Below are positions 16,356-38,519 of a stretch of 51,229 nucleotides of DNA, in pieces. Numbering within the stretch: position 1 is the first letter of the stretch; each line of letters begins with the position of its first letter. The notes beneath the pieces were generated by a model. The model had not been told where the DNA came from. It saw only the letters and a list, made by a program, of their open reading frames with translations, and searched no databases. The position numbers and the translations under genes were made by a program. This DNA comes from Patescibacteria group bacterium (GTDB lineage: Bacteria > Patescibacteriota > Gracilibacteria > Peribacterales > Peribacteraceae), in assembly GCA_018814875.1 (NCBI GenBank), contig JAHIYH010000045.1, positions 77,316 to 128,544 of the forward strand, written 5' to 3'.

Positions 16356-16510
16356 TAGGGCGTTGGGTGTGGGGCGTTGGGCGTTGGGTGAGGGCATTTT
16401 TCATTTTCTTGCCGGCCGTAGCCTTGTTCGCAGGCCATAGCTTTAGCGACGGCTGGGCGAAGGCTGGTCATTTTTAACTTTTCATTATTAACTATTCACT
16501 TTTAACTATT
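16356..16510. repeat. Repeat cluster with a 56-bp dispersed palindromic element
   Basis: GGGCGTTGGGTG-like units lie at 16356-16396. A palindromic element spans 16411-16466 (starting GCCGGCCGTAGCCTTG and ending CTGGGCGAAGGCTG), and TTAACTATTCACTTTTAACT-type repeats lie at 16470-16510. The 56-bp element has a second copy, about 93 percent identical and inverted, at 24799-24854. Confidence 0.75.
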
Positions 16511-24782: not shown

Positions 24783-24934
24783 TTCTTTTAAATCCCAACA
24801 GCCTTCGCCCAGCCGTCGCTAAAGCTATGGCCGGCGAGCAAGGCTACGGCCGTCAATAAACCCAAAAAACAAAACCCAAAATCTACGATTTAGGTATTTG
24901 TGATTTGGTATTTGTGTTTTGGGTTTTAGAAAAT
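24783..24934. repeat. Palindromic repeat with the 56-bp element nested inside
   Basis: AAATCCCAA is followed by the 56-bp element (24799-24854) and then by AACCCAAAATC...GATTTAGGTATTTGTGATT and TTTTGGGTTTTAG. The same outer frame recurs at 46962-47055, where a shorter palindrome occupies the same slot (46972-46999). The outer AAACCCAAAA/TTTTGGGTTT arms can pair. The remainder of 24701-25043 shows nothing coding. Confidence 0.7.
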
Positions 24935-35989: not shown

Positions 35990-37516
35990 ATGAAAGTTAT
36001 CGCATACGTTCGTAAGTCTACAGAGCAGGAAGACAGACAAATTTTATCTATTGATGCTCAACTTCGCGAGTTGAGCGATTATGCCGCAAAAGAACAGTTG
36101 GAAATCGTCGCCTCGTTGTGCGAGGCCAAAACCGCAAAAGAGCCCGGGCGAATCGAATTCGCCAGAATGTTGGAAATTGTAGAGAAGGGAGGAGCAGAAG
36201 GCATCCTCGCATGGCACCCTGACAGGCTCGCTAGGAACTCTGTGGATGGAGGGAAGATTATGCACCTTTTGGACACAGGCAAACTTAAAGCACTGAAGTT
36301 CCCGACTTTCTGGTTTGAGCCGACTCCACAAGGAAAGTTCATGCTGAACATTGCCTTTGGTCAGTCCAAGTATTACGTGGACAATCTTGCCGAGAATGTG
36401 AAGCGTGGCATGCGCGAGAAAGTGCGCCGTGGCGAGTGGACGTGGCCTGCTCCGCTTGGTTACATCAATAACCGAGAAAAGCGAAACATTGAGCCTGATT
36501 CAGAGAAGGCACCACTCGTTCGCAAGGCATTTAAACTCTACGCCACAGGAGAGCACACGTTTCTCTCGTTGCGCAATGAACTAACCAGACTCGGACTACT
36601 GACGCGCAAAGACAAGGTGCTGCCAGTGTCCAATGTCCAGAAGATGTTGCAACACCACGTCTACTACGGTGTGATCAGCATGAACGGTGAGCTGTTCCCC
36701 GGCGTATTCGAGCCGATTGTGAGCAAGAGACTGTTCGACGAGGTGCAGGTAATGATGCGAAGCAAGAGCAAACCGAAGAGGAGAAGAAAACATGAGTTTC
36801 CATTTGCCAGTTTTTTACACTGCGCTACTTGCGAATGCGCCATCTCTGCTGAAATTCAGAAGGGGCATCATTACTACCGATGCACTCACAAGCGCGGTCC
36901 GTGTGATCAGCGCAAGTACTTGCGTGAAAAAGGCTTGCTTGAGCAGGTACGTAAAATCGTCGAACAAGTCTCTCTGCCCGATGAATGGGCGGATAACATG
37001 CTGCGAGAACTCGACAAAGAGGAATCATCCGAAAAATCGGATCATCGGGTAACTGCTGCACATCTTGAGGATGAGCGAAAACAGATAGACATACAGCTTG
37101 ATGATCTCCTCGATTTACGATTGGAAGCCGCACTCAATACCGAGGAATATCTTGCAAAGAAAAACAAGCTGGTGTCACGTAAATTAGAGATTGATCAAGA
37201 GATCAAGGACGCTGAACAGAATCATTCTAATTGGCTCGAACCCATGCGAGAGATGATAATGCGCAGTCGTGAAGCCAAAAAATTGCTCTCGACCGAAAAT
37301 CATTCAGAATTTCCAACATTCTTAAAAACGATCGGAACGAACTTTGTTTTGAAAGGGAACGCGGTGCAATGGGAAGCCAAAATAGGATGGCGCGTATTGG
37401 CGAAATCGCGCGGATTTCGCGGATGGTGGGCCGGGAGGGATTCGAACCCCCGAAGTCGGAGACATCTGGTTTACAGCCAGACCCGTTTGACCACTTCGGT
37501 ACCGACCCACAGTTGA
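35990..37516 (+). CDS. Large serine recombinase (integrase/resolvase family)
   Basis: A 508-residue large serine recombinase. The catalytic domain has Ser10 in YVRKST and the DRLARN arginines near 79-82. The recombinase domain follows (YINNREKRNIEPD to ~265), then a zinc ribbon (Cys278, 281, 298 and 305) and a coiled coil (about 340-400). Such enzymes cut attP and attB with a 2-base stagger via Ser-linked DNA. From residue 481 the frame runs through antisense tRNA-Tyr, giving a 28-residue tail that is an integration product. In the reconstructed circular form it would instead end GAFAQIRTDFNTNRRGG, 497 residues in all. The ATG at 35990 follows directly after the inverted attP-like site. Confidence 0.92.
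   Translation: MKVIAYVRKSTEQEDRQILSIDAQLRELSDYAAKEQLEIVASLCEAKTAKEPGRIEFARMLEIVEKGGAEGILAWHPDRLARNSVDGGKIMHLLDTGKLKALKFPTFWFEPTPQGKFMLNIAFGQSKYYVDNLAENVKRGMREKVRRGEWTWPAPLGYINNREKRNIEPDSEKAPLVRKAFKLYATGEHTFLSLRNELTRLGLLTRKDKVLPVSNVQKMLQHHVYYGVISMNGELFPGVFEPIVSKRLFDEVQVMMRSKSKPKRRRKHEFPFASFLHCATCECAISAEIQKGHHYYRCTHKRGPCDQRKYLREKGLLEQVRKIVEQVSLPDEWADNMLRELDKEESSEKSDHRVTAAHLEDERKQIDIQLDDLLDLRLEAALNTEEYLAKKNKLVSRKLEIDQEIKDAEQNHSNWLEPMREMIMRSREAKKLLSTENHSEFPTFLKTIGTNFVLKGNAVQWEAKIGWRVLAKSRGFRGWWAGRDSNPRSRRHLVYSQTRLTTSVPTHS
37351..37430. repeat. Right attachment site (attR) with 80-bp arm
   Basis: The last recombinase codons (GAAAGGGAACGCGGTGCAAT onward) and the core TGGTGGG are a perfect 80-bp inverted copy of 35873-35952. 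The match stops exactly where the sequence enters the tRNA acceptor stem (37431), giving arm B-core-tRNA, the combination expected of attR. Confidence 0.78.
37427..37508 (-). tRNA. tRNA-Tyr (GTA)
   Basis: An 82-base class II tRNA on the minus strand. The acceptor GGGTCGG (37508-37502) pairs with CCGGCCC (37434-37428), the discriminator is A (37427), and CCA is encoded (37426-37424). The anticodon GTA is at 37474-37472 in the loop CTGTAAA. The extra arm is long, as in bacterial tRNA-Tyr, and the T loop is TTCGAAT. All stems look intact. Its 3' end is the recombinase attachment core. Confidence 0.96.
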
Positions 37517-38015: not shown

Positions 38016-38205
38016 AGGATATGAAAGGAAGTAGTATATTCAAAATACTACTTTAATTGTTCTTGTCAATAGAGTCCTCTCGGGAATTTCGTCCAATCAT
38101 TACATTCTAAACCGATACTTCAATTCCATCACCTCTCGTCTTATATCCTCTCTCCGGGCGTCTTTGCCTGACCCTCGTAGCCCGCAGGCGAAGTGGGGTC
38201 GAATC

Positions 38206-38432
38206 GGTCTGGAAAGGATTCCCGCCTTCGCATTGCTTCGCAATGGCTACGGTGGGCAGGCGAACCCCCGAAGTCGGAGACATCCCTGTCGGCCATAGCT
38301 CGTAGCGAAGCGGAGAGCGACGGCTGATGGTTTACCACTGTCGCACATGTGCGACGTGGTTTACAGCCAGACCCGTTTGCCTGCCAGCCATAGCCCCAGA
38401 GGGCGGAGGCTGGACCACTTCGGTACCGACCC
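38206..38432 (-). pseudogene. tRNA-Tyr pseudogene split by four insertions
   Basis: Pieces of the tRNA-Tyr at 37427-37508 recur in order over 227 bases: CCGACCC end (38426-38432), TACCGAAGTGGT, CAAACGGGTCTGGCT with the GTA anticodon, GATGTCTCCGACTTCGGGGG and a decayed acceptor. Inserts interrupt the D arm (38380-38413), the anticodon arm (38336-38364, with TGGTTTAC duplicated), the anticodon/variable region (38285-38327) and the T loop (about 38222-38260). The acceptor has two mismatches and the discriminator is lost. It cannot fold as a normal tRNA. Confidence 0.85.
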
Positions 38433-38519
38433 ACGTTGACCATACTATAGACAGGTTTGTTGAAAGCGCAACAATCTGAGTTATAACATTTAAACTCTTA
38501 TTATCATTTATTAACAAAT

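Follow-up and report, generated by a model that had tools for sequence, protein, structure and literature searches.

Two families of tiny palindromes inserted in a spare tRNA-Tyr copy of a Peribacteraceae genome, one of them recurrent in tRNA leaders

It has long been asked how palindromes of very small size spread through bacterial genomes. Archaeal multi-intron tRNA genes offer one precedent for a tRNA that is split several times with its pieces in order. The broken tRNA-Tyr copy described here differs from those genes in that it is bacterial, has lost its acceptor 3′ strand, is interrupted by members of repeat families and has an intact copy nearby. Among small bacterial palindromes, REP elements of the CGTC class are reported to be without a dedicated transposase (PMC3733652), and the activity of TnpA-REP on E. 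coli REPs is reported to need both the tetranucleotide and a bulge in the stem (PMC8266576). MITEs have a total length under 500 bp with copies down to 39 bp, and Rickettsia palindromic elements (RPEs), at ~150 bp, lie in-frame in proteins, according to a review (PMC10969869).

The locus lies in a window (the whole stretch of DNA that was analysed) of 51,229 nucleotides, G000:C43:77316-128544, from a Peribacteraceae genome (G000) of 1.42 Mb in 70 contigs. It resembles the RPE situation in that small palindromes sit inside genes of a reduced genome. RPEs are described as in-frame in proteins (PMC10969869), whereas here tRNA copies are the targets and the read-through frame is not kept in a relative, G021. 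Searches of the open-access literature turned up no paper that deals with palindromes in the D-arm of tRNAs or with elements of this kind in this bacterial group.

The sole tRNA that ARAGORN and Rfam called in the window is an intact tRNA-Tyr, which we used as the parent copy and as the empty-site reference; neither program called the broken second copy, which spans 38432-38216 on the minus strand, about 0.8 kb upstream of the intact gene. Read along the minus strand, its parts are GT plus tRNA nucleotides (nt) 1-20, insert A, nt 20-42, insert D, insert B, nt 43-66, insert C, AATCC and a diverged 3′ end (Table 1). A repeat comparison gave 100% identity to the intact tRNA-Tyr over runs of 22, 23 and 24 bases, in order, and blastn of the whole genome returned the intact gene, the pseudogene pieces and two 21-base matches in other tRNAs. 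The original prediction, made from the letters of the window, had been of a tRNA-Tyr pseudogene with its segments in order and split by inserts, which the identical pieces (nt 1-20, 20-42 and 43-66) confirm; its coordinates and the insert lengths that it gave (34, 29, 43 and 39 bases) hold, the lengths at 33/34 for A, 29 for D, 43 for B and 40 for C. Its further statement that all segments of the tRNA can be recognised is right as far as nt 66 and AATCC, and fails for the last ~14 bases, the acceptor 3′ strand and CCA, which were not recognisable in the pseudogene. It made no mention of the intact parent copy in the same window.

Table 1. Features of the tRNA-Tyr locus, in window coordinates
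Feature	Position	Strand	Remarks
Intact tRNA-Tyr (GTA anticodon, CCA encoded)	37424-37508	-	ARAGORN; Rfam RF00005, 59.6 bits
Pseudogene piece 1, tRNA nt 1-20	38413-38432	-	100% identity to intact copy
Insert A, family E (CCTG + imperfect hairpin), D-loop	38380-38412	+	33/34 bases; related E at same site in G021
Pseudogene piece 2, tRNA nt 20-42	38357-38379	-	100% identity to intact copy
Insert D, 23-bp near-palindrome CACTGTCGCACATGTGCGACGTG	38336-38358	+	29 bases added = 23-bp element + 6-bp repeat
Target duplication GTTTAC, 6 bp, left copy	38330-38335	.	
Target duplication GTTTAC, 6 bp, right copy	38359-38364	.	
Insert B, family E, anticodon arm	38285-38327	+	43 bases; orthologous in G021
Pseudogene piece 3, tRNA nt 43-66	38261-38284	-	100% identity to intact copy
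Insert C, family E, T-loop; orientation opposite to A and B	38221-38260	-	40 bases; orthologous in G021
AATCC + diverged rest of tRNA 3′ end	38202-38220	-	
Fifth palindrome, family E variant (CTCGTAGC type), 3′ edge of pseudogene	38167-38200	+	common to G021

Two other readings of this sequence were rejected. A functional split tRNA with introns would have to be assembled from pieces that include neither an acceptor 3′ strand nor CCA, and therefore yields no complete tRNA; a 100-aa open reading frame through the pseudogene (38141-38443, minus strand) was discarded as a protein on the G021 comparison given above. Directly downstream of the pseudogene, at 38102-38170 on the minus strand, G000 and G021 share a short frame reading GKDARRE(D/E)IRREVMELKYRF(R/K)M, in which most of the differences are synonymous; Pfam gave no match to this frame, which may be what is left of a gene.

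The four inserts had been taken as being of one kind. They belong to two unrelated element families, which we call E (inserts A, B and C, with a fourth copy at the 3′ edge of the pseudogene) and D. On its own strand, an E element of about 30-45 nt starts with a CYTG tag (CCTG at this locus) and continues as an imperfect hairpin, in whose stem GTA or ATA stands opposite GAA or similar and a mid-stem mismatch is conserved. A strict E pattern gave 46 matches in G000 and was present in 64 of the 74 genomes of the taxonomic family, against a single match of the reversed pattern across all 74. All six positions of the outer stem were paired in 25 of 103 loosely matched distinct copies, compared with a mean of 7.4 and a maximum of 15 after shuffling. 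When folded as DNA and compared with shuffles, A (z -2.9) and D (z -2.3) stood out clearly, C did so weakly (-1.1) and B was no better than its shuffles (0.3), so that E cannot be defined by stability alone. Measured against the intact tRNA as empty site, inserts A, B and C showed no target duplication and an overlap of 0 or 1 base. At sites elsewhere E occurs in both orientations, nested in other E elements and in tandem. Two nested pairs, at 16409-16465 (plus strand) and 24800-24856 (minus strand), hold one hairpin within another in near-identical sequence both times.

E is like REP elements in being a short imperfect palindrome with a tetranucleotide at its 5′ foot, a mid-stem mismatch, many copies and a habit of nesting, and it is like the CGTC REPs, as reported (PMC3733652), in that no dedicated transposase was found. 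Its tag is CYTG, whereas those of REPs are GTAG or CGTC, and its strong preference for the tRNA D-arm sets it apart from REPs as those sources describe them. Unlike the REP/RAYT arrangement, a Y1_Tnp (RAYT superfamily) gene flanked by E was not found. G000 has two Y1_Tnp genes and matches occur in 53 of the 74 genomes; E lies within about 1.5 kb of 1 of 12 Y1_Tnp loci, and the single-contig assembly of G032 has 23 matches to E but none to Y1_Tnp. Because Y1_Tnp is rarely beside E and G032 has E without it, we do not claim a RAYT as the mover of E.

D is a palindrome of 22/23 bp with CAC..GTG ends, inverted arms (CACtGTCGCAC/GTGCGACGTG) and no coding capacity. Its pattern, GTCGCACNNGTGCGAC, was present in 9 of the 74 family genomes, and the reversed-pattern control was zero in 73 of them; the counts for E and D bear out the expectation that the palindromes belong to families with many copies elsewhere. 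We examined target duplication at sites with CAC..GTG ends only, which gave 22 sites and, after repeats of identical flanks were dropped, 18, several of which share longer contexts and hence are not fully independent. Perfect 6-bp direct repeats flanked 9 of these 18 distinct sites, and repeats matching at 5 or 6 of the six positions flanked 12; with shuffled right flanks the mean was 2.3 sites at this level, and the observed total was reached in 0 of 20,000. The nine perfect sites carry six different 6-mers (GTTTAC, GCTTGC, CTAAAG, ATGTAT, GCATGC and GCAGGC). Some sites speak against a duplication: L249 has no repeat, and L264, L270 and L271 match at 4, 4 and 3 of 6 positions, respectively. 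Matches of 3 of 6 or fewer in register were seen at 4 of the 18 sites, two of which (L251 and L272) have repeats in a shifted register. Two further sites fell outside the test, L250 as a degenerate tandem and L261 as lacking both the CAC/GTG ends and the repeat. At the pseudo-tRNA-Tyr locus, an 8-bp target duplication, TGGTTTAC, had been proposed; the duplication is real and is 6 bp long (GTTTAC) around a 23-bp CAC..GTG element, the two extra bases matching by coincidence.

In its inverted ends, lack of a gene, fixed-length target duplication and several copies, D is like MITEs. It is unlike them in its total of 22/23 bp, two ends without a middle, and in that a parent transposon with D-type ends was not found with a single-arm pattern in 8 genomes, with seven stretches inspected. 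One convergent pair of D arms (G020 C15, 3.5 kb apart) was considered as such a transposon and rejected, its flanks not matching. Viral contigs gave 0 matches to D.

A search for the pseudogene over 59 genomes, G000 included, found one other holder, G021, which belongs to the same family and another genus. There, too, an intact tRNA-Tyr is present, and the pseudogene lies about 1.1 kb upstream of it. The two pseudogenes align with a mean column identity of 87%. Inserts B and C and the outer palindrome sit at the same places in G021, and an E element of a longer type occupies site A. D is missing there, and G000 is longer at that point by exactly 29 bases, that is, 23 plus the 6-bp duplication. 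The absence of D from G021, where E elements occupy the same sites, makes D the later insertion. The E elements were in place before G000 and G021 split, or before the locus was transferred between them. G021 is accordingly the relative with fewer inserts that had been called for. The view that palindromes were caught here in the act of inserting stands for D, with its 6-bp repeat and its absence from G021, and falls for A, B and C, which are older, occupy the same sites in another genus and have no duplication; for D, both an emptier relative and direct repeats around palindromes of its type elsewhere were found.

In the same-genus genomes G001 to G004 the pseudogene was not found (G001 and G003 are about 80% complete). 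A pseudo-Tyr block of 340 bp is kept between G000 and G021 while its surroundings are not, which could reflect constraint or transfer. Three bases of the middle part that differ between G000 and G021 are identical in both tRNA-Tyr copies within each genome, a pattern that suggests gene conversion. G015 has, immediately upstream of its intact tRNA-Tyr, a truncated 5′ copy of this tRNA that carries a palindrome at the same point of the D-loop.

The association of E with partial tRNA copies extends beyond tRNA-Tyr, and this general tRNA-leader pattern is more surprising than the pseudo-Tyr locus itself. A copy of the gene's own 5′ end was seen upstream of 33 of the 138 tRNA genes surveyed in five genomes, among the matches listed. 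The sample comprised 46 ARAGORN genes of G000 (50 Rfam matches), 30 loci from 39 matches for G004, 30 from 41, with L118 added, for G021 and the best 30 of 88 in G032 and G090, with tRNA genes having less than 100-150 nt of upstream sequence dropped. In G000 an exact copy of the own 5′ end lies within 400 bp upstream of 13 of the 46 tRNAs, Tyr being the 14th; the counts elsewhere, again among the matches listed, were 8/29 in G004, 4/30 in G021 and 7/33 in G032 and G090 together. Leaders paired with wrong tRNAs gave 0.6 on average, where 31 copies within 400 bp had been observed; a second control with 9-mers from inside the tRNA gave 0 and 2. The distance from the 5′ copy to the gene is mostly 70-150 bp and reaches about 1 kb only for Tyr. 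In G000 upstream copies are nearly all of 5′ ends, and downstream copies mostly of 3′ ends. Copies of tRNA 3′ ends (last 13-18 nt), some repeated, lie ~140-230 bp downstream of Arg, Trp, Gln and Cys tRNAs (L143, L141, L144 and L018), and at L023, L150, L153 and L156 of G000 hairpins start right at the tRNA CCA end (for example TCCTTCGC...GCGAAGGAT), some with E in the loop.

In 24 of the 33 cases the 5′ copy leads straight into an E element of the same orientation, nearly always behind tRNA nt 12/13; the pattern used for this count covered one orientation, and at L006 two further 5′ copies, of tRNA-Asn, have a hairpin facing the other way. Of 35 fragments with at least 5 nt of tRNA beyond the insert, 28 take up the tRNA again exactly at nt 13. 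The threshold admits chance matches (about one in seven by estimate, not computation; 19 rows have at least 8 nt), and the position is biased, part of the 56 fragments in the test having come from loci picked by a TAGCTY pattern. In 34 of the 35, the two tRNA parts overlap by 0 or 1 base. These junctions show a precise insertion of E between nt 12 and 13 in the conserved D-arm motif TAGCT^CAG, with no target duplication. The junction pattern TAGCTYCNSCCNNCG matched in 49 of the 74 genomes, a count that means little on its own because its reversed control also has many matches. Thirty of its loci were listed, with 28 tRNAs, 19 of them with a 5′ copy; 9 of the 30 loci have no tRNA within 450 bp downstream on the same strand. 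Longer retained copies, as for Tyr, were seen for tRNA-Lys in L240 and tRNA-Gly in L312. At L223, E lies in the D-arm of a tRNA-Asn-like sequence whose 5′ strand is mismatched and for which an intact neighbour was not seen.

The leaders themselves are in part duplicated. At least 11 of 20 leader bases are shared in 17 of 57 copy pairs, with 1.9 expected, and six pairs are nearly identical; the other 40 fall below that level. As most leaders are unlike, only for the younger cases is it established that leader and tRNA 5′ end were duplicated together in tandem, and the requirement for an exact 9-mer partly explains why nt 1-12 match where leaders have diverged. Tandem arrays of 5′ end, palindrome and leader occur at L137 (G000:C20, ~2781), with two Ile units, and at L006 (G000:C40, ~1501), with three Asn 5′ copies. 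Overall, the recurrence of E in leaders suggests that it inserted into spare 5′ ends of tRNAs that had been copied in tandem.

The 5′ copy and its hairpin might instead be a selected leader RNA and no scar of insertion, the copy acting as a decoy 5′ strand that competes for the acceptor stem and the hairpin being nut-like. Orientation and position are near-constant, as such a role would have it, and the copy tracks its own tRNA between genomes (Lys has GGGTCAG in G000 and GGGTCGG in G021); promoter-like scores also run slightly higher in front of the copy than in the stretch from copy to gene (p 0.016, paired p 0.03). However, only those 33 of the 138 tRNAs have the arrangement, in sets that differ by genome among the matches listed, and E is also found elsewhere, in either orientation and nested in other E. 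A boxA-like motif between 5′ copy and tRNA, present in 15/26 versus 9/79 in the discovery set, failed in G032/G090 (2/7 versus 1/26, p 0.11) as well as in the pattern set (6/19 versus 4/9) and was dropped. We consider a selected leader RNA unlikely.

It is also conceivable that E is immobile, its hairpins having multiplied through slippage in replication, through template switching or through gene conversion from one hairpin to another, and been kept in the D-arm because the tRNA sequence itself can fold there. That E is nested and in tandem, with no associated transposase found, would fit such a history. The exact insertion at nt 12/13 in many tRNAs and genera, with the CYTG tag carried in, and a consensus conserved in 64 of the 74 genomes argue against it, and we regard it as improbable.

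Integrative elements offer a further source of tRNA fragments. A serine recombinase gene at 35990-37516 on the plus strand runs with its 3′ end antisense over the whole intact tRNA-Tyr, and the nearest relatives of its product are Patescibacteria records, several labelled Peribacteria or Peregrinibacteria. Close relatives of the recombinase gene end over genes for Lys, Ile, Tyr, Glu, Pro or Ser tRNAs, so that the recombinase family seems to use tRNA genes in general. The 5′ tRNA copies could on this basis be attachment-site halves left by integrative elements, with palindromes filling in later, and tRNA 3′ ends copied downstream in several cases would agree with that. However, the recombinase is on the 3′ side of the tRNA and the 5′ copies are on the other side, mostly 70-150 bp off, and leaders are duplicated too in the young cases. 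A second tRNA-Tyr 3′ end that could be the matching attachment half was absent from the window, which holds one copy only. We judge an origin as integration remnants to be quite unlikely.

We propose that the spare tRNA-Tyr duplicate probably served as a landing place for two unrelated tiny palindromic mobile elements, E, which leaves no duplication and favours the D-arm, and D, which leaves a 6-bp duplication. A local duplication upstream of the working gene would have produced a redundant second tRNA-Tyr, and this copy, not being needed, would have become a target for both. E would insert precisely and without target duplication, with TAGCT^CAG in the tRNA D-arm as its favoured site, and would survive only in spare tRNA copies because an insertion in a sole functional gene would be lethal. 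D would insert with a 6-bp duplication, the trace expected of a DDE-type transposase that works on fused terminal repeats. The parts of the locus, its empty and filled sites, the 6-bp duplication of D and the recurrence, preferred site and orientation of E are observed directly. By analogy with REP elements, the E hairpin may move as single-stranded DNA, and D was presumably moved by a transposase acting in trans; no transposase tied to E or D was found in our searches, and until an enzyme is found the two are variants of known small mobile palindromes. Our wider suggestion is more tentative and may well not hold: E could represent a new class of mobile hairpins, which throughout the family homes in on the tRNA D-arm (TAGCT^CAG, one preferred orientation, no duplication), is tolerated only in tandem 5′-end copies and reshapes the leaders of about a fifth of tRNA genes, with D, at 22/23 bp, among the smallest elements that transpose with target duplication.

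For the question of how such palindromes spread, tRNA genes give a sequence-identical empty site beside the filled one, so that one can read off directly where, in which orientation and how exactly an element inserted, as well as its relative age, and this comparison is possible in many tRNAs and many genera. The clean 6-bp target duplication on a 22/23-bp palindrome bears on how short the substrate of a transposase can be, and the recurrent D-arm site of E is a concrete target for finding the enzyme.
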